A stretch of 64,000 bases of DNA, from NCBI RefSeq assembly GCF_002865645.1, contig NW_020194517.1, forward strand, positions 1,550,001-1,614,000. Direction: 5' to 3'. Shown here piece after piece: positions 724 through 64,000 of the stretch. Numbering within the stretch: the first letter of the stretch is position 1; each line of letters opens with the position of its first letter. The DNA comes from Hyaloscypha bicolor E. Taxonomy: Eukaryota > Ascomycota > Leotiomycetes > Helotiales > Hyaloscyphaceae. Under the pieces are notes generated by a model. The model had not been told where the DNA came from and did no database searches. It was given only the letters and a program-made list of their open reading frames with translations. Made by a program: the position numbers and the translations under genes.

Positions 724-3700
724 ATGTCCTTCCAATTTCTGGACTTTGACGACCCAGCGTCTCAAAACGATTCCGATTGCAGTGGCGGTGAGAGTGATAC
801 CTCCGGCATTTCTGGGGGTGACTCCAATGGCAGCGGGAAGAGCTCGTGCGTCAACGACCTTTATTCGGAGTCCGCTAACTTAAAAGGCTCAGATTAAACC
901 GAAGATCAAATCGAAAACGCGTGAGGGCCAGCCGGCGGTCGTTCGATCGGGCGTCTTGCGAGCGTGACGATACATCAGATGACCAGTCTAGGGAGGGTGT
1001 ATTCGGAAATACCAAGCGCCACCAGCTTCACCATCCAAGGAAAGATCGGTTCCGGTCGCCGTCACCATTCCAGGGATGGGAAGATGGAATTGATATAACA
1101 CCTCCAAGCCAGTCCCAGTCGAGCGAGAAAGAGACGGACAGCCAATTGCCATATAGCGAGGGACAAGATAGCCAATCTGATGTCGATTGGGAATCACTTC
1201 TCTGTGAAGATGTCGAGATGTTACCCGAGTCAAACTGGGAGGCAGACTTTCTCGCCCATCAAGCACAAATAATGGCATGCTCTGGCTATCGAGGTCTACA
1301 ACATAACGAGTTGATTGACGACAATGGAGATGAGCCATGGCACCCATATGACCCGGAGAGTATGATTTTGGACGGCCACATGGAGCTTCACATCGATTCA
1401 ACCAAGGACAAACTAGAAGGAGACAAAATCATTTGCTACGGAGTGGTGAGTCCTAAAAATTTCTTTCTTGCAAGCGCGCTGTGCATCTTTTTGGACACCA
1501 GACCGTAGAAGATTCGTTCATTTCAGCTATCAATGGACGTAATATTGTACTGTTGTCCAGCAATCTGTGACCCCCATCCAATCCATGTTATCTTGAGACT
1601 TCCCAAGTACGCAAAATATAAGAATAGCTATTTGCAGTTATCTACCACGAAACAATCGCAATTGTTTGTTATTTAATATTACATTTCAATCATTAACACG
1701 AGGAACAGATCCATAAAGTGGGTGTGAAAGTACTCGAGCAAGCTCGCAATGCTTTACAACGACTTAAGTCAGCGCAGATCATTTCCGAATCTCTCAGTGA
1801 ACGGAAAATTTATCTTTTCAATATTTCGCGGGAAGATAAATTGTTTCTATTGCAACCTCCCATAGCCTCAGATAAAGACTTTTTTCATTTCAACAACATC
1901 GCGGTATTAAATAAAGGACACTCTGAAATACTCTCCGAACTAGCTCCGTTTTGCAAATTCGAAGTTTATTCGTCTTCCGCTGACTGGGATTTGGTCGCAA
2001 ACGGGACTGCATCTATCGACAAGCAAACGTTCCTTCTCACTGATGTGATTATTTACGGTCCAAAAAGATGTCTAGAAGAAGTGGGGAAGCTTCTGGACGA
2101 CAAGAAGGTATTCCTACAAGAACCTGATTATCGGGATCCAAATCTTGGTTATATCAATCCTCATATATTGGATCTCAGTGCTGTCCATCCAGAACCACAG
2201 GGTGAGGCTGATTCGATGTCTTCATTCTTGCTGGAGATTGGACTCCAAAATGAGCTCGCGTGGCAGATAGCCACACCTCAGTCACTCGTGAAGGAAAGAA
2301 TTGCAACAGCATTCAAGAATATGACGCGGGCTCAGAATTTGAAACGAATAGCTGCTGACATCAGAATTCGTACCATTCTTAAACCGTAGGCTAGGTCTCC
2401 CTATCCCAGCCAACCCCAACTGACCAGTTTACTAGGTATCAAGAGGAGGCTTTGGATTTCATAATGCAAAGAGAAAGCGGCCCTGTTCCAGAAGAGTATT
2501 GCCTTTGGAAATCAAAGCAAGTTCAAAATGGTATCTCGTAAGTTTAACAAACCACGTTTGAAGCGCTTCATAATTTGACTTCAGCAGATACAAGCACGCG
2601 ATCACCGGCTGTGATAAACCGGAGAAGCCCGTGGAAACAGGAGGTGGTATTCTAGCCGATGAAATGGGGCTTGGGAAAACTCTCACAATGCTTTCAGCCA
2701 TGATTCGTACCGCAGATAAAGCGAAAGAGTTTGCGAGTAGTTCATATCATGATACGAATTTAGGAACACAGCATTCACTGATCCCATCCAGGGCGACTCT
2801 GGTCGTTGTGCCTTCTCCATGTAGGTCTAAGATACGGTAAAGATTTGCAGCTGATCTGACAGAGCACAGTACTCCTCAACGAATGGATGCAAGAGATCAA
2901 ATTGTAAGTTCCGCTAACCATCCACCAAATACTATTTTGGATTGACTTGGTGACAGACATTGTGACGGCTCTTCCAAAATCATCATCTATCATAGTCATG
3001 GCAGAGAGGGAAATTCTAAAGCACTTGCTGACTCTGATATTGTGTTGAGTACCTATCACACTATATCCCATGAATCAGGCGATAAGAATAGCCCTCTATG
3101 GCAGATCAAATGGTTCAGAGTTATTCTGGATGAAGGTAAGCCTCTCTCGTATTATCATCTAGGTTCAATCCAAATTCATTCTCTTTAGCACATATTATCC
3201 GCCGGATTTCAACAAGACTGTTCAAGGCCATGAACAAACTCCGAGCAAAGCTCTATTGGTGCTTAACTGGAACACCAGTACAGAATAGCTTGGAGGATCT
3301 TGCTGCACTACTCTCCTTCATTCGCGCTTCGCCACTCGACGATCTAGTCAAATTCCGGAAGCATATCATTATACCCTTAACCAAAGGCTCAGAAAATGGA
3401 GTAGAGAACCTACGGCAACTACTCGATTCTGTCTGCCTTCGCCGGACCAAGCAACTGCTCCATCTTCCCGAGGCCATTTTCGAACTTCAGCAATTGCGTT
3501 TCTCGGCAAAGGAAGAACAACAATACAACGACACAAGAGACAAGCTAGTGAAACTGATCCACAAAAATGGCCTAAAAGCCAAGAATGAAAAGGGATACCT
3601 TGGGGTCCTCCAGCTTCAACTGCAGCTACGTCGTCTATGTAATCATGGCACTTTCCAGAAACCTTCGCTAGGAGCTGATGAGTTTGATCCCGAACAAGCA

Positions 3701-4650
3701 ATCGCGCTTCTAAAGAAACAGAAAATTGCGAAGTGTGAGGCCTGCAGTGTAGATATCACGGGTATTCAAGGCATCGAGGAAACTCGCAATGGAATTTTCA
3801 CCGTCTGCGGGCATCTGCTTTGCATGAAGTGCGTCCCCAAGATGAAAGTGGCGTTAAAGCTGGCGGATGGAAGAGACGGCTGTTTCCAGTGCTCAATATG
3901 CCCTGAAATTGTGTTTGGGGGCTATCTTGTTGGTGAAGAAGTTGCAGCAAAGTCATCTAGTGGTGGAAGCAAAAGCCTCTCTGCTTGGCATTACTTTGAC
4001 AAAGAAGGTTGCTCAACCAAGGTTTCTGCTGTCGTTGCTGATATTGAGCATCACCAAACGGAGGGAAAGAGGTAAGTAACCCTTGTTTCATGGGATTAAG
4101 CTTTGTTCTCAGCTAATTTGTGGTGCCCACAGTATAATATTCTCCTGCTGGACTAGATCACTAGACCTCATTGAGATTTTCTTCAAATCGCGGAAAATCC
4201 CCTTCGTCCGAATAGATGGCTCTCACTCTTTGGCGCAGCGGAAATGGATTCTCGAAAACTATCAGAAAGATCCAGCAGTCAAAATCTTACTCATGAGCAC
4301 GGGAACTGGCGCCGTGGGGTAATTATCACTTCAGATATGTTTGAGGTATATCACTGACGCATCCTTTTGCAGATTGAATCTTACTGTCGCAAATTGTGTA
4401 TACCTGCTCGAGCCACAATGGAATCCAATGGTCGAGAATCAAGCTATTGCTCGGGTCTTACGTCTCGGCCAGACAAGAAATGTAAGAGTAGTCCGCTATA
4501 TTATGAAAGGCACAGTGGAAGAGGTAATACATCCTTCGCCCAGGTCAGTTACAAACAGGTTAACAACCACGATAGAAAGAAATGCGAAGTCAACAGATAC
4601 GGAAGTTAGAATATGCCAAGGTAGGGTGGAAAGAGGAAGAACAAAAGTAG
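724..4650 (+). CDS. SNF2/Rad5-Rad16-type helicase with embedded RING finger (paralogue 1)
   Basis: DEAD-like SNF2 ATPase, expected to translocate on DNA and remodel chromatin or act in repair in the nucleus. Eleven exons: 724-845, 893-1445, 1709-2385, 2436-2537, 2588-2820, 2870-2903, 2957-3135, 3189-4071, 4133-4318, 4373-4523, 4576-4650. They join in frame to 1064 aa. Residues 1-225 are acidic and disordered, ending in a conserved ICYGV. Walker A DEMGLGKT is near residue 515, motif II is DEGAH near 633, then [13 protein letters not shown]-like cluster ([17 protein letters not shown]) lies at about 816-872 between the two helicase lobes, as in Rad5/Rad16-type E3 proteins. Motif VI is [11 protein letters not shown]. 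The Met at 688 is an alternative in-frame start, but the context at 724 is better (A at -3). The 263-nt second intron is unusually long. Divergent neighbour of an NLR and paralogue of 23133-26414. Confidence 0.88.
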
Positions 4651-5757
4651 AGCAGAGAATGCAAGGGCTCAGCTCTGCCGACAGTATCTTTGTAAGTTGG
4701 GTATCGAGCATATCACAAATAGAAAACTTGTACTGTGGACAGCGGCAGGAACAGAACTTGACGCAAAACTACCCTCAAATTACACATTAACTTTGAAATT
4801 AGCATCTGAAGCAGCCGATAAAGTAGATTATGCTCAGGGGAGATCATCTTCGGTGCCCTTTAGCGAATTGGTTAGAGATCCCATATTATCTAAATATAAT
4901 TATTACTAATGCTTATTAGTTTGGAACACAGCGGCCTTTCTAAACTATTATGATATCGTGATAGTGTCCATTCTCGCTCCTCCTGTCAAACTTTATAAGG
5001 ACCCCTGCCGGAGCCGATTTTGGATTGGAGTCACACGTGACTAACAATTTAACCATATCACAATTCAACGTCATCGTGGATGGCTTAGATTTTACTGAGC
5101 ACTTATTTAACTTAACTTCGATGGTATTAGAACTCATACTTAATACCTATGTTATAGTTATCACGGAGTCCAGCGATTAAACAATCTGACTTCGACGCCA
5201 GATATAAAATGGTTAAACTCAAGGAACAGATCAGGTTTTCTTGGCGCATCATCTTCGCTAGTGGACATTGGTGATCTAGTGAGATGATTTTGTTATGGTG
5301 AGTAAAAATATGAGATGAGGAGTGCCTCCTAGCGGTCGTGAAGTCGTGGTTCCAGATTCTAGCTATGATGGCGGATGTGACAATGTCGCAGTGTGCTGCA
5401 TATTGGCGGGCGCCATGCGCCAATCTATAAATTGAACAGTTATCATTCGCCAACAGCAGCATATGAGTCAAAACATCTACTGGATTGGCTGCTAGGTTCT
5501 TGATTGCAGACCTCGCAATTGCAACGCAGCCTTGCAAACGGTAGCTCCACATATTCAGGGAATTAACACGTGTTACTGGAGCTTCGGACCTTGGGGTACT
5601 GAGACTGCACCAGCTTCTTTAAGTACCAAGATTGGACTCTTTTCAGGGCTAATTAACCTCTTCCTGTAGGTTGAGAGATCCCAAGAAGTCAATGCTCGAG
5701 AAATCCACACCAAAACCACTTCCGACCGTCCGAAAAGAAAGTAACCAAAGATGGGCG

Positions 5758-5815
5758 AAGGGTAAGTGACAACGGATGCAACGATGGCAGTGGGCGTTAT
5801 CGTCCCACCTTTACC
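5758..5815 (+). repeat. Dispersed degenerate repeat, copy A1
   Basis: Contains GTGACAACGGATGCAACGAT and GGCGTTATCGTCCCA. It aligns with 7000-7065, which has GTGATAACCGACGGAACGAT and GGTCGTTATCGTCCCA. By eye the two are roughly 75-80% identical. Function is unknown. Confidence 0.5.
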
Positions 5816-6999
5816 CTATACCCTCACTTCTCACCCATAAGCTACTTAATAAATTTCTCGTGTTTTCATTTTCGTTCGTTCTGAGGAGCAAGAGTTGAAG
5901 TGGTGGCCTCCTTTTGACTCGGCGCAAAGGTTCCTCTGCTGGGACAGGAGCTTGTGTGTGCATATTTACGCCTTATTCTCAATCGAGAGAACGCACAACG
6001 CAACTGTCTTGCTAAAAGTCGGTTTCGCTCTTGTCATCAAATATCGCCTGCTCAAATAACGAGCCCACAGAAAAAACAACCACACAACGGGATAATGTGC
6101 AGCAATGCCCACACGATTTCTATTAACATCGACCTTTTCAAGACAGAAGAAATTCAGATCAAGATAGTGGGTTTTCTTTCTCAAAGTAATCAGTGCGAAA
6201 AGAAGTTGGAGGATAAGGCGTTCTCTACACGTCTTCTGATAATGTCCCTGTGACAAATTTCAAAGACAAACTTGACGGAATTAGAAGGATACTTGGATGG
6301 GATATATGGTTATGATTGGCAACAATCTGTACCTCTCCGAAAAGTTGACATCAACATCATCGAGAAGTAAACGGCAGCGGTCTAAATATTGACAGCAGGC
6401 GTTCTTGTCCAATTATTTCCCCCTTCCCAAATTCTCTTTTCCTGGGATCCTTGTTTCCAAAGCCTTCTCGTGATTGGATACAGCTCTGAAAGTATTGCCA
6501 AGTTGCCGGAACAGCAGGTCATTTGGTTGTAGCCTATAGGTGCTTCAACTGTTTGTGGTTGCTGGGGAAGACTTCAATACATGTACGGCAAATTGTGGTA
6601 CTCGCGTGCTTATATCTATACAGCAGTCACATCTCAAACCCAAAGCTCTTCTGCCAGTCTTATTCACCGTTGCATTTTACTGGTCAGGTATTTTTCCTAT
6701 CGGCATCGAGCCCCAACCCTCAACCCCCCTGAAAACCATCCCCATCCCCTCTCCCGACCATCCAGAAACGTTATCCAAGAGATATTTAAACGAACCCTCA
6801 ACTTGCACAAGGAGCCGCAGAACTCCCGAAATTCCTCCGACAACTCTTAGGGTTGCAACCGTCTTCATCGCGCAGTAGCTATTGGAAATTTTATCTTTAG
6901 AGGAAGCGCGACTGGGTTTAACAGGAATCCAGAATCTAAGACGGAGGCTCTGATAGCTACTAGCCAAACGTCATCCAGGAATCGTCCCAAACACGCGCG

Positions 7000-7065
7000 A
7001 AGAATAAAGTGATAACCGACGGAACGATGACAGCGGTCGTTATCGTCCCATACTCTGCCCCTGGG
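7000..7065 (+). repeat. Dispersed degenerate repeat, copy A2
   Basis: Diverged partner of 5758-5815 in the same orientation, about 1.24 kb downstream. The shared core is GTTATCGTCCCA preceded by an AACGAT block. The GTAAGTGAC of copy A1 reads AAAGTGATA here. Confidence 0.5.
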
Positions 7066-7574
7066 TTGTAAAAGGTGTCTGGTGTTCTTTAAGAGCATCC
7101 CCCCCCAAACACTAGCCGTCCCGCCTCCAACCTACTTGTCCTGATAGTCGAAGTTCCTCTTCGCTGCACATCTCAATAACCTCAACTACTCCTCGAATGA
7201 CACAGTAGGTGGTGATTTTACCCCCTTCTCCATTCTTGAGCTCCTGAAACGTTCCTTTTGCACATGTAAATCACAGACTGAATTATCAATTTTAGAATAC
7301 AGTATCAGGAAATGCAGCAGAGATCGTGAAGCAAGGCATGCCACAGGTCAATCTCAACTTCAAGATATATAAACACAGCACTGATCCAAGGGAGGTGGAC
7401 TGACAGATATTCACACCGGATACTGAATTCATCGGCTAGTCAAAAGCATTCGATACTGATGGAGGTATTTCTAAATGAGGTGCTCAATATGGCATTTAGG
7501 CGACATGCACTAGAAGACGAGGGCGTGTGGGGGGTAGGTACGAAAAGACGCACCTTCTAAATCCGACGTAGGAT

Positions 7575-18338: not shown

Positions 18339-21300
18339 TTACGGAAAAGGTTTATAGCTCCAGATCTTCGCCCACCTATCTCCACTGCCCGTCGCGAAGC
18401 AAGTTCCGCTTGGGCTCGCCGCAATGCTATTAACGCTGCCCTTATGGCCTTGTAACTTGAGTTGAACATTGCCCGTTTGTAAATCCCAGAACTGAACTCC
18501 ACGGTCCGCGGAGCCGGAGAGAACCCAATTTCCATCGGGCGTAAAAGTGGTGGAGAAAACGAAGTCCTGATTTATGTTAGTGAAAGCAAGAAGTTAGGGG
18601 GTGATTTACCTTGTGGCCCTCGAAGGTCTTAATACAGCGACCACCCTTAGGAGCGTTGTTGGGGTGTACACCTCTTGGGAGACTTGGGGTAGCGAGCTCC
18701 CACATCTTGATCGTCTTATCTAAACTACCAGACACGAGATCCTTGCTGTTCGGTGCGAAAGCAACGGAGTATACATCGTCCTTGTGTCCATCAGGGCCCT
18801 CAAGACGCTCAAGGAGGTATCCGGTGAAAGTATCCCAGACTCGAACACACTTGTCCCGACACCCGGCTGCGACGAGCTTGGCATCTGGGGAAATGACAAC
18901 AGAAGTAATACCAGTTTCAATACTAAGAGTAAGAACATTTTGGCCAGCCTCAATATCCCAGAGACGAACGGTTTTATCATTACTCCCTGAAGCAATAGTA
19001 CGACCATCGCGTGCGAAGTCTAAGGAGTAAATATCATCCTCGTGACCTTCAAAGGTGTTTCTAAGGCTTCTAGAAGCGATGTCCCAAACCTGTATTCGTT
19101 AGGAATAGCACGTATAAATCGATATTATTACTTACTCTAATCAATTGGTCATCTCCACCAGTAGCAAGATATCTTCCATCAGGACTAAAGCAAACACTTC
19201 TGATATAAAAATCAAATATGTAATTAACCGATTTATCTTCGAGGATATTAATCTTCTGTCCAGTGACAACATCGAAGATCTGTGCGACCCGTTTACAGCC
19301 AGTAGCAATATATTTTCCATCATAGCTGAATGTAACACAGCCGACGACACCTGGGTGTTCAAGAGCGTGAACAAGGTCAACATCAAGCACACGGGGAACT
19401 TCTGGGTTGAAGATAGCGAACCAATCCGACCCGACATGCTTTAGGTGTCCTGGCAGACGTTCAAGATCCAAATCAGCCAACGCATTACCGACGGCTTCAA
19501 AATCCTCCTTCTCTAAGGCGGCCTTCTTCAGTTGCATTGCCTTTTTCCTTCGAAGAATCGGTGCAGGTTCGTCTGTAGCTTTGGCATGGTACAGTCTAGT
19601 GTGACTTTTCAGGGAAGCTTTCGTGTTGAAACCACGAACGGAAAGATCACAGGACATGACTCCGCACCTGTAGACCCTAATATGATAAGATGCTTCATGT
19701 TGATCTCGTTCTTCGATCGACACAAAGCCATTGACTCCTCCTTTGCACTGATACCGACACGGGTATCCTAATGTCCCGTAAATATCTTTGAAGCTTCGAA
19801 GGAGGCTAGAATCATGCTGGTGTAAAAGATCAGAGCTATTAAGAAGGTATCCTGAAATGCTCTTATAACGGTTTGAGAGCTGAGTTAAGCTTGTTGGATC
19901 CGCTTCGAGCTCAAGGCGCTCCAATTCTTGAGAATGTTAGCAGGTTCAAACGAAATTCGCGGTTTTTGTTCCACTTGCCTTCCGGTGAATTTGTGTTGGA
20001 CCTCCCTTGTTCCAATCGCTTCCGGAATACTAAGACTTTCTCCAAAAACCGCTGGATATTTGGAAACTGGTACCAGGATGATAAGTGTTCATGGGATCCC
20101 GAGTAAACCTCAATACTATTGGCCATTGGGGTGTCATAAAGGTGTGGCAGACTCTGTGATTGGCTAAGACAGTCCACTTGCTGAACAAGTGCTTTTGTCT
20201 CTGCGGGCGAGTCACACAGTTTCGAAAGACTGAATCGAAGAAGGTGATCAATCCAAAATTCGTGAGCGTACCTGTGTAATCCATGGAATCCTTTGATGAT
20301 GCGATTTTCGGCCTCAAAATCCGTCATTGAAGGCGATATGAGGCAAATACTAGACGATAAATACGAAACACATGAGAAGGCCATGTCAAAGTGACCGTGA
20401 CATTCTTGTAGATAAGGACCACTACTAGGGTGTAGAATATATCTTTCATCCACAAGTTAGTATTGCAAATAATTGCCTCCACAGAACGGGTGATACATAC
20501 TCCTTTACCGAAAAATGAACAAAGTCAATGTCACCCGACGGCCCTTGCTCAATCAACGGTTTGCATTGGTCTAAAATGTGAATGGATAACTTCGTAGTAT
20601 CGTCGAGGACGGTATTTCCGGGGTAGAAGGCTAATCCATCTTGCAATTCAAAGGGTTTGAGCTTGCGAAATGAACATGCCATCCACTTCAGAATTCTGAC
20701 AGATGTCCGGCGGCTGAAATCGTTTGATTTGTTGATACGCTGTAGAATTCTTCCGTATCTGCATTCCATAGTCAGCACAGCCATACAAAGAAGTCATTTT
20801 TAAATAGCTCACGCTTCATCCAGGCCTTCTGGGAGGCTCTGTGCAGCCTCAAAAAGATCCTTTACAGAGTACCGACCTTCAAGCTCTGCAAGAACCAGTC
20901 TCACATAAAGGAACATACCTAGATACCACCGCTGATTCATCAAGATAGGTTGTAAGCAGACTCCCGTACTTACCAGTCGCTTTATTTACAACAATTTGCT
21001 CGACCTCGTCGATGACGGCCGGTTCAAACCTTTCTCGGAGTGTCATTAGTTCTTCATGAACATATAGTCGAATATCGATGTCGATACTGGCTCGTTGATC
21101 ATGTTCGCTTAGGAAAATGGTTGGCTTCTTTCCGAGGAGCCTCTGTATGCAAGCATTTTCCCTGCTTGAGACCAAGAGCTTGCATCTATCCCCAGAGAGT
21201 TTCATGAGAAGCAAGAGTTCATTGAGAATTGACTTCTGGTCTGCTATTCCACACTCATCCAGACCGTCGATAATAATCCGCGTTGTTGGCATAGTTTCGA

Positions 21301-22637
21301 TGAGTTCTGGCAGAACCTTTCGTACCTGGGCAAGAGTCGCTGTAGGTCGTGAGGATGCGTATTTATCAGCGACGTGAGATGCTAATTCGATATTGGCCTG
21401 TAGGAGCTGAAGAATTAGACTCTTCAAGATCTGAGCGCAGATGTCTTTGCTATTAGTGGTGCTATCACAGAAGTAGTAGATCAATGAATAATTCTGGTCC
21501 ACTTTGAGGGCTTCGATCAAGTGTACACACAAGACGCTTTTTCCTGTTTATTGAAAGTTTAGCATATCTTCTTGTGATGAATAGCGGTGAAGTGTTGTCT
21601 TACCAGCCCCAGGAATTCCATTGAGCCAAATGATCGGATGCCTCCTGCTATCACTAGTCCATGACATTATTTGCGCATTTTGGAGAAGCCATTCACCGGT
21701 TCCAGATTGCCGTCTTCGAAGCAATTTTTCTCTAATTTCCTGTTGTTCGTCATTGGTGATGGCAAGCCAAGTTATAGAATCTTGGAGTTGATAGTTTTGC
21801 CTCTCTTTCTCACGTCGAGCAATATCTTCTTCCGCACGGACTCGCGCACTTCGTGCCTCTGCTATATTAATGGACGAAGCCTCTCTATCTAGCAGATCTC
21901 TGTGACGGGAAAGGCTTTCTAGGATTCCTGAGAATCGCGAGTCGAGATCTTTCCATAACGAGTCAAACACAACATGCCACACTAATTTCAAGTTAGCAGT
22001 ACTACTAGCTCTCCTCAACCATGCGCATGATTCAAACCTCGTCGTCTGAAAAGTTGGTAGGCATGAGTGTGGAATTCGAGTATATCAGAGTAGACCATGA
22101 CTAAGACTCTTTGAAAATCGGGATGGTCCTGAAAGGTCTTCTGGAGGCGATCAAAACGCGGCATCGATTCAGCGATTTGAGCGTATGCGTTAAGTAGTTT
22201 TTCGAAGATGTTTGCATGAGCACTGGCTAGCTGTCAATATTTAGTCGGTGCGCCCTCGATCAAAGCTAATAAGAAGTGCCAACCTGCAACAGTAATTTGA
22301 TGGGAGCCTGAGTTTCAAGAATTGTTATTAGGTATCTTGGGTGATTATTCCGAGAGCTCATTCTGAGACATACCCATATCCATGGTAAATACGGTGTCCC
22401 ATTACAAAGAGTTTCTATCGACTTGGAGTACCTTTCAAGGGTTTTCAAGAAAGGCTCAATCCGTCGCATGTTATTCATAGATTTACTTTCGCGCTGGCGT
22501 TGTTGTATAGCAAGTGCTGCCTTCCAAACATCTTCGAGCGTAGTGGATTGGAAAGTGACAGCGTCAATTGGATTGACAGATTGTTTCAACTTCATGAAAG
22601 CCATGTCGATAGATGCTAATGTGTCTGAGGCCGCCAT
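18339..22637 (-). CDS. NLR with NACHT, C2H2 fingers and a Tup1-type WD40 propeller (complete, 1251 aa)
   Basis: Eleven exons join in frame: 22637-22374, 22307-22284, 22230-22038, 21981-21604, 21543-20974, 20918-20813, 20758-20501, 20442-19979, 19926-19136, 19089-18610, 18566-18339. Order: N-terminal helical domain of fungal NLRs (about 1-180), linker, NACHT with Walker A GIPGAGKS (282-289) and Walker [10 protein letters not shown] (376-384), helical region, two C2H2-like fingers (about 805-865; CRYQC...HEASYH, then YRC...C...HTRLYH), and a seven-bladed WD40 domain (about 935-1251). The WD40 part matches Tup1/RcoA corepressors blade by blade, including the lead-in [19 protein letters not shown] and the motifs [27 protein letters not shown] and [10 protein letters not shown]. 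The Tup1 N-terminal tetramerisation and Gln-rich parts are absent. The intron at 19978-19927 is GC-AG. Fingers and first blades share exon 9, so the fusion is not a model artefact. Expected role: cytosolic or nuclear STAND switch in recognition or incompatibility. The ligand is unknown. Confidence 0.9.
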
Positions 22638-23132: not shown

Positions 23133-26100
23133 ATGAATTCTATCAAAGGTGAAGTCGACTCCATGGCAGATACTCAACAGCCTAGGCCTCTCAAACGACA
23201 ACGGATCGTTGGAGATGAATCGTCATTCAAAGTCGTTGAGAATGTCCCATTGCTTGGCTCGGCACACCAAGTGTTAGGAGATCCATTCAAAATAGATGAA
23301 CCACCTTGCCCAAGCCTCAGGAACGTTGTATCCAACGACGATGAAGCGATGGATCCCCCTCCACCAGCTCAGGAGACGGAGCGACATCCAGGACCAACTA
23401 TGACCGGATTGTCCGTCTTAAAGTTACGACGAATTCAACCGGGAGAAGAAATCTGTTTTGGAATGGTTGGCAATTCTAACATGTTCGGTCAAAAAGGTTC
23501 TGACTTCAATATAGGTATCAAATATCCCTGTCCGATTAGGGGAAACTCAGTATCCACAAAATCCGATAATTCACGTTCGGCTAGACCAATCAAATCAACT
23601 GCTTCGACTGGATACATGCCAGAGGTTTGGCACAATACAGCCCAAATATTCCAAGATCTTCCATGCCCTGAAAGACATGAATCTCGCATCAACCCAATCG
23701 TACTGTACTGTAGAGATTCAAGACAAGAAAACGCAGGGAAAGGCTGACGATTATGGAAAGAAACACCCAGCTCGGATCTTTCTCTGTGTCATATTCTATG
23801 GAGTCATCGAAGATTTTGAAGATGTTGGCGAGTTCTTTCAGGAGTGCCAGATGTACCTTCAAGACCCGTTTCATTGCGATCGTGACGTGAAATATATGAA
23901 TCCACATATGCTTTGCAGCCAAGAAGAAGAGCCAATCACCACAGCATCTATCACTCCCGAAAGCATCACCTGTCTCGTTGGGAATGTCACCTCTCAGATT
24001 GATCTATTTGCAGTTTTGAGGAACGAAGATAACATCGAAGAAGCCGAGACCCCAATGGCGATAGAAACGCCTCTCTTTCGGTAGGATCTTCCCTTAAATT
24101 TTGTAGGCTCTTGTTAATTTTACAAAGACATCAAAAACAAGGACTGAAATTTATGTCGCAAAGAGAATTGGGGTGGGCATTTGATTCCCCAGGAAGCGAC
24201 ATCTGGGCCAGGGAGACGCGCGGTAATGGCCGGTTACTGTATGCTATACACCTCGCTCAAGTGCATCGAATTACTGATTTTATCATAGATATGTTAATAA
24301 TATCACCGGAGAAACGCAATTGGCACCTCCTCCAGATTTCAGAGGAGGACTTTTGGCTGATGAAATGGGACTTGGGAAAACCCTCACCATGATAGCACTA
24401 ATTGCTCTCAACCAAAAAGAGCCCGAGATAAAGAGCAAAAATGTTCCAGCAATTTCACGACGATCTATTAAAACAACTCTAATTATTGCTCCACTTGTTT
24501 GTAAGTTTTCTACCTTCTGAATGCTTGAGGCAAATCTGACTTGTACAGTGTTAGAGATGTGGCACAGCCAGTTACAAAAGTTAGTCGATTGCTTTCATTA
24601 TAGCTATTGCTGATTTTAGTAGACATCTGCGGCCTGGTGCAATGTCATGGTATACTTACCATGGCCCGGTCAAACCCTCGATTCATGTGCTTTCAGAATA
24701 CGACATTGTCCTCACAACGTACGAAACAATTGCAGCACAACTCAAAAAATTCCATAAGTCAAATTCAGTAGAAGAGACAATCTATTCTGTTACATGGCAT
24801 CGAGTGATTCTAGACGAAGGTAGGTGAGCGAGAGTCAAGCACTTCTTTGACGCTGCTAACCGCCAGCAGCACATATAATTCGGAACAGAGGTAGTTCAAA
24901 AGCAAAATCAGTCTGCGCTCTCTACGCTTCTAATCGATGGGCAATTACTGGAACACCCATTCAAAACAAGCTCACCGATCTGGCCAGTATAATTGAATTC
25001 CTCAGAGTGTTCCCTTTTTCGGATCCGGAAACCTTCAATATCGAGATTTCCCAACCCTGGCAAGAATCAGACCAACAAGGCCTTCTGCGACTTAAGAAAT
25101 TGGTCAACTCGGTCGCTTTGTGTAGGCCAAGGGCCACTATCAACCTTCCAAGCCGTACCGATGAGATTCATCGTTTGACCTTCACCGCTGCTGAGCAAGA
25201 CTTGTATAATTCCGCTCGGACTTTCACTGCTAGCATGCTTGATAATGCGATGTCCGAAGAGTTCACTCAAAAAGGATTATATTTAAACGCACTGACATGG
25301 TTAAACAAGCTAAGGCTCATCTGCAACCATGGTGTGGTTGCTGGAAAACAAGAGAGCTTTGATGACATGAATACTGACGGTGATGTCCCCAATACTTGGG
25401 ACAATATTACCGCTCAGAAAGCGTTCAACAGTATGATCGATGCTGGTGCAGCTATGTGTGTCGCTTGTACTGCTAACCTTGCTGACTCAACCTCGGATGG
25501 CTCACCAGAAGGTGATGTCGAATGCTTGGACAATGGGATTCAGCAGCCTATCCATGCTCATCTATCCCAATGTCTGTTTGTTCTCTGTTGCTCTTGCGCT
25601 TCGAAGGCATCAGCACTTTCCGGGAAATCACCGTGCGCACACCATCCGAAATGCCCAACCTTTGGAGTCTCCTTGGTTGAATCTTCCCACCCTCAAATCT
25701 TAAATCCTGGAATCACTATGAGTCCAGGTTCTACGCCAACAAAACTGAAAGCTCTTCTTCAAAACCTGAAGGAATTTAAAACGGAGAAAAGGTATGTTAA
25801 CTCCCCTCAGGTGGCGTTTTCAATAGCTTTTCTAATAATGGCTTGCTCCAGTGCCATCTTTTCTTACTGGACCTTTACGCTGGATCTCATTGAAAATGTG
25901 CTAAATAGGGCCTCGATTCGCTTTACAAGGATTGATGGACAATTGTCCCCTGATAAAAGAGCAGATGCCATTCGAAGATTTCAAACAACAGATGACACCC
26001 GCATCATCCTGGTTTCTATTACTTGTGGTGGAGCTGGGTGAGTCTACAGCTTGAAATGTCAAGTATTTTTGACATTAACACTCACTAGGTTGGATCTCAC

Positions 26101-61072: not shown

Positions 61073-64000
61073 TTATTCTCTATCTGCCGAGGCACCAATC
61101 TCCGATTTCTCCGTCTGCCATTCAAGTAATGCTTGGCGGGAAAACAAAGTACTAGGGTGGCTTGTACCTAAGATCCGGGTTCGTGCTTTTACACATTCCT
61201 CCATTAGCTTAAAGGCCTCTATATCTCGGCCATATTTTTTCCATATCCAGGCAAGATTGTTTATACTAGTCAATGTGTCTGGATGGTCCGCTCCGAGCTT
61301 TATCTTGCTCGTTTCTAGCACTTGCACACTTAGCTCTTCAGCCTTGTCCCATTGTCCTTGGTTCCGGTAAGTCAATGCCAGGTTAGCCATGCTATTTAAT
61401 GTGGCTGGATGGTCTGCTCCGAGTTTCGTTTTTCTCGCCTCTAGCACTTGCACCTCTAGCTCTTCAGCCTCGTCTAACCGTCCCTGATCCCAGTAAATCG
61501 ACGCCAGGTTATTCATGCTAGTTAATGTATCTGGATGGTCCGCTCCAAGTTTCGTCTTTCTCGCCTCTAGCACTTGCACCTCTAGCTCTTCAGCCTCGTC
61601 TAACCGTCCCTGATCCCAGTAAATCGACGCCAGGTTATTCATGCTAGTTAATATATCTGGATGGTCCGCTCCAAGTTTCGTCTTTCTCGCCTCTAGCGCT
61701 TGTACCTCTAGCTCTTCAGCCTTGTCCAATTGTCCTTGGTCCCGGTAAATCAATGCCAGGTTAGCCATGCTATTTAATGTGGCTGGATGGTCTGCTCCAA
61801 GTTTCGTCTTTCTCGCCTCTAGCACTTGCACCTCTAGCTCTTCAGCCTCGTCTAACCGTCCCTGATCCCAGTAAATCGACGCCAGGTTATTCATGCTAGT
61901 TAATGTATCTGGATGGTCCGCTCCAAGTTTCGTCTTTCTCGCCTCTAGCACTTGCACCTTTAGCTCTTCAGCCTTGTCCCATTGTCCTTGGTTCCGGTAA
62001 GTCGACGCCAGGTTAGCCATGCTATTTAATGTATCTGGATGGTCCGCTCCAAGACCTCTCTTCTCGATTTCAAGAACTTCAGCAATTGCAGCCTCAGCCT
62101 CATTCCATCGCCCATCTTTGGAGAGGCACATTCCATACCTCCACAAAAGATCCATCCTACTCTGCCAATCTTTGTCGACTAGGTTGGATTCTAGTACATA
62201 ACGCGCGTGTGGCAAGTATGTTCTCCAGACACTTCTATTCCTGTGGTCTTCGTCTGGAAACACTTCCTCCAGTCGCCTAATTACTCGCTCCGTCGAAGAA
62301 GGAAGCAATTTTTCTTTCCGAAGCCAGTTCCGTGTGGACAGATGTACTAGCCGATGGAGGTCAAGAGCAGTATCTGCGGGCCGTTTAGTATGAATGAGTA
62401 GGCGTTAAGCGTCCCAATCGCCTCTATCTCTTTCTTGCGCGAAGGTCCTGGAGGAAGAAGAGCCTGTGGGATGTCCTTCGAATCGATGCAACACATAAAG
62501 GACAGGTAATCAGCCGCTAAAGGGTCGCGATGCCGGATCTGCTCGAACGAAACTAGCCATGTTGTAGCAACCGGGTTCTTTATATTGTGATATCTCCCGT
62601 CGTCCTCAAATTCCTCGCTTAGGAGATCAATAACCTCCTCTTCTTGATCTGCCAGGAGTAATAGATAATCTGCGAATGTGATCCCGTTCTCGTTGATGTA
62701 TGCTGCTGCCTGAATAATAGCTAGTGGAAGGTAGGTGAGCTCTTCAAGTAAGTCTTTCGTATCTGACCCACTAGTAGCAAGACCCGGATTGACTAAACAC
62801 TTTTGTAGCAGCTGGGTAGCTACGCCTTCGTCCATTTCCGGTACCTCCACTATATTCTGATGTGCAAGTTTGACAGCCGTTTTCCTATCGCGTGATGTGA
62901 ATACAATGCACCCTTGGTCACTTCTGGGCAAGTACTCGATTAAACGGCCAGATCCCGGCTCAGACCCAGCCTTCGCAATCCACATATCAATTTCATCGGC
63001 GTTATCGAATACCAGGAGCCACTGGCCAGCACTCTCCTTGCTTAGGTAAACTTGCACAAGTTTCTTTACATCTGCCTTCTCCTCCTCGCAACCAGCAATA
63101 CTAAGCCGTCGGGCAACGTCGAGATATGCTTGATGAAGACTTTCCATGTTGGTCGCTGGTATCCAGATAACTGAGCAATTCCTATACTTTTCTCTGATTC
63201 GGTAGACGAGTGCAAGCACTAACTGGGTCTTTCCTACACCTCCGAGTCCGGTGATTGCAACCTTGGTCGTTTGCTCTCCCACGAAAAGCTTTCCTTCAAG
63301 CTGAGCAAGCTGGGTCCCACGACCCGTAAAGTTGGGATTTCTGTCGAATGGTACGATAAAAGGAACGAGCTTTTCTGAAACCTAAACTTAGTATAGGCTA
63401 AAACATGATAGAGACTCCATACCTTCTAGATCTTGCGGCTCGCCAATACTATTAGAGAATCCTTTTACTGTCATTTGAAGCCGTTTCAGTGCCACCTCCT
63501 TCCCCTCGCCATAGATAGGCGGCATAGACACTTCGCAGAGACCCAGTAAACAGTACACAATATCTTCTTCTTTCGTTGTCTGGCGTCGTGCTGCCCATCT
63601 TATCCGCTCATCTATATTGAAATTAGAGAATGGATTTCCTCGCAGAGCTTGAATTGGAATTCCCGTGATCTCTTGGATTGACTTTTCTAGTGACTGTTTA
63701 TCGCCTAATTGCTTGCCTTCTTTGGAGAAGAATTCGACCATTGATGGAGCTATAAGCTCTTGAAGTGTCCAGCCTCTGCTAAACCACCTGCTATCCCGGA
63801 AAGCCGCTTCCCATAGGTATTGGCGTGCCTGAACGTCCGCGTCATAGCCAAGTATTGTCACATCCGCGAGGTATACGTAACATTTCTTCGCATTTCGATA
63901 CCAGCGGAACATTGAATTGATAGCCGTTATAAGCTCATCTGTATCTGACTTATCAATGCAGCAGGTGTCTACCCAGAAGTATCGCAGGCCATCTCTTGTC
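61073..64000 (-). CDS. HET-NB-ARC-TPR NLR, 5' partial, one frameshift
   Basis: Runs off the right edge. The first visible exon (64000-63423) encodes the HET domain (RYFWVDTCCIDKSDTDE, MFRWYRNAKKCYVYL, SRWFSRGWTLQELIAP). After a 48-nt intron the second (63374-61073) encodes NB-ARC with P-loop GLGGVGKTQ, Walker B WLLVFDNADE, TSRDRK and LPLAIIQAAAYI, then LHRLVHLSTRNWLRKE and eight TPR units. At about 62386-62391 the frame slips by one missing base between AYSFI and KRPADTALDL. As read, translation would stop at 62347 before the TPRs. Flanking conservation shows a recent or technical lesion. The HET domain is a cell-death effector in vegetative incompatibility, and the TPRs are the likely sensor. 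Confidence 0.85.
61262..62017 (-). repeat. Six near-identical 126-bp TPR-coding tandem units
   Basis: Each unit encodes 42 residues of pattern (A/N)NLA.IY.DQG..D(K/E)AEEL. The units differ at few bases, and two alternating types (NNLASIYWDQGRLDEA and ANLA-IYRDQGQ-DKA) make a higher-order pattern. One more diverged unit lies on each side. Near-identity points to recent amplification or gene conversion within the array. Confidence 0.92.

Follow-up and report, generated by a model that had tools for sequence, protein, structure and literature searches.

The window analysed here is a 64,000-nt stretch of the Hyaloscypha bicolor E genome, and positions 18339–22637 on its minus strand hold a gene for an NLR fused to a Tup1-type propeller. 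The gene model, spliced through short consensus introns and accompanied by an annotated orthologue of like architecture, comprises 11 exons that encode 1251 aa. Its ten introns are 43–66 bp long, nine with GT-AG and one with GC-AG borders, and no stop codon falls inside the spliced 11-exon reading frame, leaving the fusion gene intact in this model.

The N-terminal domain is by profile a DUF7708 (aa 61–200; 21863–22457 including introns, minus strand as for all parts of the gene; PF24809, E 1.3e-13, or 2.6e-13 with the whole protein). It is followed by a NACHT/NPHP3_N nucleotide-binding domain (aa 254–426; 21125–21703), recognized by PF24883 (E 2.4e-36; 125.8 bits against a Pfam cut-off of 24.8) and PF05729 (E 7e-10; 39.4 bits against 26.7), with P-loop codons that are interrupted by an intron. 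A winged-helix-like region (aa 530–602; 20430–20706) gives a weak match to PF22939 (E 0.005, below the cut-off). Next come two tandem C2H2-like zinc fingers (aa 803–866; 19586–19777), which form the hinge of this NLR family and were identified by eye and through a family search, their profile support being weak (only Sina_ZnF, E 4e-4, below the Pfam cut-off). The protein then passes through the lead-in that precedes the propeller in Tup1 (aa 898–930; 19394–19492) into a seven-blade Tup1-type propeller (aa 931–1251; 18342–19393, exons 9–11), assigned by Pfam, structure-sequence, genome and tree comparisons, and so ends in a C-terminal repeat sensor of WD40 type (PF00400, E 1e-64).

The joint between receptor and propeller lies within exon 9 (19136–19926), a single open frame of 791 bp that holds the end of the NLR body, the zinc fingers, the Tup1 lead-in and the first blades. 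The GC-AG intron lies directly upstream of this exon (19927–19978; GCAAGT...CTCAAG), and the frame stays open. The initial annotation of this DNA had described a continuous run from fingers into WD40 domain within exon 9, and this continuity is borne out. The span that it gave to that exon, 18339–19926, covers exons 9 to 11, however; the propeller is completed by exon 10 (18610–19089) and exon 11 (18339–18566).

Further coding regions were seen in the window. A second NLR lies at 61073–63381 on the minus strand, where an NB-ARC/NACHT open reading frame precedes TPR repeats recognised by Pfam; judged by eye, these repeats are close to identical. Past the 5′ end of the fusion gene, at 24860–26041 on the plus strand, Pfam identifies an SNF2-type helicase frame, and by eye a similar pair of frames is present at 3140–4790.

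A Tup1 propeller joined behind a zinc-finger hinge

Several comparisons identify the C-terminal domain as the propeller of Tup1. First, yeast Tup1 (1erj) aligned with residues 13–361 of a 363-aa piece of the receptor in a single stretch (351.6 bits), whereas 2ymu, with a higher total score (536.4 bits), matched it as seven partial repeats. Second, the host retains its genuine Tup1: a search of the genome (82 Mb, 76 contigs) located on contig C75 an intact gene of four exons encoding 596 aa, with the tetramerisation domain Tup_N (PF08581, E 3e-19) and with 99% identity over its length, and 100% in the propeller, to Tup1 of Hyaloscypha finlandica. The receptor propeller is 79.9% identical to this host protein over 354 columns. 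As in an integrated decoy, then, the host source of the fused domain is still encoded elsewhere. Third, set against four distinct WD40 arrays encoded elsewhere in the genome, the receptor propeller is 37–41% identical, and shorter stretches of such arrays reach 45–50%. Fourth, its blades are dissimilar to one another, with a mean identity of 31% over 21 pairs, compared with mean repeat identities of 58–78% in three of the host's own repeat arrays.

The near-identical repeats and concerted evolution that mark HET-E and the HNWD family are thus not seen here. HET-E, HET-D and HNWD of Podospora anserina are alike in being NACHT receptors with a C-terminal WD40 propeller, but the repeats described for them are near-identical and evolve in concert (PMC1805685), whereas the blades of the window receptor match the single-copy blades of Tup1. 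Against the Tup1, RcoA and RCO-1 corepressors themselves, the receptor is alike in its lead-in and whole propeller (80% identity to host Tup1) and differs in its fusion to an NLR and in two missing parts. Tup_N is absent among the 14 families matched by its first 890 residues (Pfam, E 0.1), and the Gln/Pro-rich middle of Tup1 is missing as well. Nor was Tup_N found upstream of the propeller, at the same threshold, in any of three receptors: that of the window and two further ones described below (C36 and P0057). The claims of the initial annotation that the WD40 domain follows Tup1/RcoA including its lead-in, that it comes without the tetramerisation part and that its blades are not near-identical repeats are therefore all upheld. 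An ordinary NLR WD40 array is ruled out by 80% identity to Tup1 against 37–41% to the four arrays compared, by the dissimilar blades and by the place of the propeller in the tree given below.

The gene structure bears on how the propeller was acquired. Homology to Tup1 starts at V898 (VGNALA in Tup1), which lies within Tup1 exon 3; the joint is therefore not at an intron of present-day host Tup1, and exon shuffling at an intron is disfavoured. Intron 9 (19090–19135) falls at the codon boundary RV/WDI, where the host Tup1 gene has its third intron. Because this intron is common to receptor and host Tup1, the captured material was probably genomic DNA and not mRNA, and a retro-copied Tup1 is likewise disfavoured. 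Intron 10 (18567–18609; GHK/DFV) shares its position with the C36 paralogue and is missing from the host Tup1 gene; it was either lost from Tup1 or is a trace of shared history. Third-position GC is 0.448 in the receptor propeller and 0.449 in the receptor body, compared with 0.616 in Tup1, which suggests that the capture is not fresh. A DUF7708-NACHT receptor has thus acquired, behind its zinc-finger hinge, an intron-bearing copy of the Tup1 lead-in and propeller, and the genuine Tup1 has been kept. The capture of the host corepressor domain, as initially proposed, is supported by identity, phylogeny, the common intron, the loss of Tup_N and an orthologue with the same junction.

Other fused receptors and the number of captures

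A search for further NLRs with Tup1-like ends, one of the checks proposed at the outset, returned four, a minimum number given the limited searches. Sclerotinia nivalis OCU04_004825 (P0003; 1248 aa, annotated with NACHT) has the same architecture as the window receptor, the same junction residues, a nearly identical linker and a body that is 87% identical. Gaeumannomyces hyphopodioides RB595_005026 (P0057; 1391 aa) shares just 29% identity with the window receptor in its DUF7708-NACHT body; its propeller is 79% identical to that of host Tup1, and the Pro/Gln-rich middle of Tup1 is retained as well. Trichoglossum hirsutum GP486_003385 (P0121; 779 aa) ends in a Tup1-type propeller with an odd last blade; its body is 30% identical over 358 residues and, the record starting past the NACHT position, it is classed as an NLR by this remaining body alone. 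Finally, the same genome encodes a second NLR with a Tup1 propeller on contig C36 (C36:515500–525000; gene at 3006–7345 of this region, minus strand), an intact gene of nine exons and 1298 aa; it too combines DUF7708, NACHT, winged helix and fingers, and its very divergent propeller has 43% identity to Tup1.

The S. nivalis protein also bears on whether the fusion might be an artefact, with a faulty gene model or misassembly joining two adjacent genes. This explanation is scarcely credible: one open 791-bp exon spans fingers and lead-in, the same junction occurs in the independently annotated S. nivalis protein, and the 31-residue linker is identical at 28 of 31 positions between the two. An artefact or pseudogene is ruled out by the undamaged gene model, by the uninterrupted exon at the junction and by this orthologue.

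A tree of 46 propellers was built from 40 reference rows (39 ascomycete Tup1 sequences and one distant Astraeus row), the host Tup1 and the five NLR propellers; it was rerun without three long rows (c36NLR, P0121 and Astraeus), and the groups to be constrained were chosen after the first tree had been inspected. The propellers of the window and of S. nivalis group together (99/95). This pair stands beside the Tup1 of Hyaloscypha and Stipitochalara with moderate support (82/74; 93/73 without the long rows), and the Gaeumannomyces NLR propeller is sister to Tup1 of Gaeumannomyces tritici (100/97). The comparison with genuine Tup1 suggested initially thus nests the window propeller within Helotiales Tup1; the opposing outcome, a propeller that belongs with ordinary NLR WD40 repeats, was not observed, generic WD40 arrays having been compared by identity and outside this tree.

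Constrained trees argue against a single origin. One clade of the window, S. nivalis and Gaeumannomyces NLR propellers was rejected by the AU test (p 4e-6; 9e-5 without the long rows), as were a clade of all five NLR propellers (p 6e-7) and a clade of the window and Gaeumannomyces NLR propellers alone (p 5e-4). A clade of window, S. nivalis and Trichoglossum was not rejected (p 0.40). The C36 branch is too long, and the Trichoglossum copy is likewise unplaceable in the tree. NLRs have therefore captured the Tup1 propeller at least twice, and possibly up to four times.

The source of the window and S. nivalis propellers is less sharply constrained. Their joint placement with Monilinia and Rutstroemia Tup1 gave p 0.025, and that of S. 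nivalis alone, as for a separate origin from Tup1 of its own family, was not rejected (p 0.078). A capture before the radiation of the Helotiales, for which the 21 Tup1 rows of this order formed one side, was not rejected either (p 0.109; 0.036 without the long rows), nor was a grouping of the window propeller with Hyaloscypha and Stipitochalara Tup1 to the exclusion of S. nivalis (p 0.30), which we count against the best explanation. Despite the p of 0.078, the linker and junction that the window and S. nivalis receptors have in common speak for a single event behind their propellers. The 87% identity of these two receptor bodies, across two families, exceeds that of full-length Tup1 between the host and Monilinia (80%); judged by this comparison, horizontal transfer is possible.

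Sensor slot, contact face and proposed working

The family search placed the finger hinge at 11 places in the genome, namely nine sibling loci, the window and C36, and DUF7708 lies about 2.3 kb upstream of the hinge at C45, C70 and C19. Behind the hinge, two of the nine siblings carry ankyrins (Pfam), five carry more C2H2 fingers (L033 by Pfam; L031, L035, L036 and L037 by eye or weakly), one has an unclassified tail and one a UBA-like segment, with UBA matches below the Pfam cut-offs. This last sibling (L045, contig C45:2148500–2156500) matches an ordinary host gene (L044, contig C5:1092500–1099500) in pieces of 69–87% identity, and its segment is, to judge from these matches, a second captured host segment in the same slot. 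The position behind the hinge is thus a variable one, with differing tails at nine sibling loci, NACHT having been checked in a few of them. Since siblings carry sensor repeats there, the Tup1 propeller sits in a sensor slot.

Our preferred reading, held with slightly better than even confidence, is that the window gene encodes a fungal NLR with a captured host Tup1 propeller as its C-terminal sensor, working as an integrated decoy. The propeller would display a Tup1-like surface, such that an attacker molecule that binds or modifies Tup1 would also bind the receptor. Binding of this ligand would switch the NACHT ATPase to an oligomer, which could signal through the N-terminal DUF7708 region to bring about cell death or defence. 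Such a bait, one of the two roles initially suggested, is better supported than the other, an output that reaches chromatin, because the propeller occupies the siblings' sensor-repeat slot and comes without Tup_N.

Rates of change separate the propeller from the rest of the receptor. Between window and S. nivalis it is 70% identical and its lead-in 61%, compared with 78–92% in the other NLR segments, whereas the genuine Tup1 propeller is 92% identical between the host and Monilinia, whose Tup1 stood in for that of S. nivalis. By these identities, the slowest part of Tup1 appears as the fastest-evolving large part of the receptor. The propeller does not appear to be decaying: between receptor propeller and host Tup1, differences at the three codon positions number 62, 42 and 183, pointing to mostly synonymous change, and the pairwise dN is 0.147 with dS saturated. 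Together with the S. nivalis orthologue, this pairwise estimate to host Tup1 indicates a fusion kept between species under purifying selection, as for an integrated decoy.

We next consider the top face of the propeller, defined as 21 positions (R1, R1-2 and D-1) by the rule described in PMC3419727 and mapped by hand to the Tup1 motifs; all p values for this face are nominal, five copies having been tested. In the window copy the face is more altered than the remainder: 13 of its 21 positions are kept, compared with 157 of the 182 further positions conserved in Tup1 (p 0.009). The C36 copy shows the reverse, with 19/21 kept against 96/182 (p 0.001) in a propeller whose core is 45% identical. 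No significant preference in either direction was found for the top face in S. nivalis (16/21 against 144/182, p 0.78), Gaeumannomyces (17/21 against 170/182, p 0.07) or Trichoglossum (17/20 against 133/172, p 0.57). Positions described in earlier work as binding Fep1 are kept at 7/7 in C36, at 6/7 in each of S. nivalis, Gaeumannomyces and Trichoglossum, and at 4/7 in the window, where the changes are L559F, K575A and I601N (Tup11 numbering). Six control loci, representing four distinct WD40 arrays, keep 1–4 of the 21 top-face and 0–3 of the seven Fep1 positions. The old copy, C36, accordingly looks like a faithful mimic of Tup1, whereas that of the window looks reshaped and may no longer mimic the ligand binding of Tup1; the bait idea is both supported by this contrast and limited by it for the window gene.

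Because the contact face of the window copy is altered, the main rival to a decoy is a direct sensor, in which a stable WD40 fold was captured as a scaffold only and now serves as an ordinary detector of non-self, as in HET-E-type receptors, with no Tup1 mimicry. The preferential change of the window top face and the status of the propeller as the fastest large part between orthologues speak for this, and positive selection has been described on WD40 top-face residues of HET-E-type NLRs (PMC1805685). We nevertheless judge it less likely than a decoy: the C36 copy has kept its Tup1 top face despite its low overall identity, the lead-in was captured along with the propeller, and two or more separate captures of one protein would not be expected had any propeller sufficed.

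Two further roles would make use of the contacts that remain. In NLRs the output is usually N-terminal, which speaks against a C-terminal propeller that brings the activated receptor to chromatin or repressor proteins and so changes transcription. The top face of Tup1-type propellers does bind DNA-binding repressors (PMC3419727, PMC2882346), and of seven positions involved in such contacts the window copy retains four; the receptor, however, has no Tup_N, hence no Ssn6 partner or tetramer by the route described (PMC2882346), and its propeller stands where siblings carry ankyrins, making such an output improbable. More improbable still is a dominant regulator, in which the fused propeller would compete with genuine Tup1 for partners and tune Tup1-controlled genes, the NLR part being incidental. 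Some Tup1 contact residues would indeed be kept for this purpose, but those at the three Fep1-binding positions named above are changed, and the conserved NACHT and the body, 87% identical to the orthologue, indicate that the receptor part is maintained.

The decoy reading can be extended beyond the window. Microbes, viruses or rival fungi that attack fungi may repeatedly target Tup1, and ascomycete NLRs of one zinc-finger-hinged family may have captured its propeller as bait in separate events, two at the least and perhaps four. The hinge would then be an integration platform, which in the same genome also took another host segment; on this view the face of C36 stays faithful to Tup1, and the window copy with its reshaped face may already follow an escaped or altered ligand. 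We regard this wider proposal as plausible, at just under an even chance. In the literature searched, no attacker molecule targeting fungal Tup1 was found, which counts against the decoy. A point in its favour is that in plants effectors of several fungi are described as converging on the related Tup1-like corepressor Topless, and one of them, Jsi1, binds its C-terminal part (PMC8126959). A fungal global corepressor that is a battleground, as Topless is in plants, is what the captures suggest; their independence in two fungal classes makes accident unlikely and provides natural replicates.

To our knowledge, few fungal NLRs have an identified ligand, and the capture of a host protein indicates beforehand what such a receptor is likely to be directed at: whatever attacks Tup1. 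Plant NLRs with integrated decoys (NLR-IDs) have repeatedly captured host proteins into the sensor position; the fungal receptors resemble them in this repeated capture and differ in kingdom and receptor backbone. Within fungi, a 2025 survey of Sordariales NLRs describes 185 non-canonical domains and proposes a CHK-2-derived kinase as an integrated decoy (PMC12258605). The integrated-domain receptors that it describes (CHK-2/PRD-4 kinase; zinc fingers, SPRY) are alike in carrying a housekeeping host domain C-terminal of NACHT, with the genuine gene kept and a decoy proposed, and differ in that the fused domain here is the Tup1 corepressor propeller (PMC12258605). Tup1, RCO-1, corepressor and DUF7708 are absent from the main text of that survey (PMC12258605), and no report of a Tup1 fusion in fungal NLRs was found in the literature searched. 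Integrated-domain NLRs are thus already known; the Tup1 propeller as captured domain appears to be new, and the evidence for repeated capture of one regulator is unusually strong. The same survey counts WD40 as canonical (PMC12258605), and the window receptor illustrates how a captured host domain can go unnoticed in a WD40 tail that a survey treats as ordinary.
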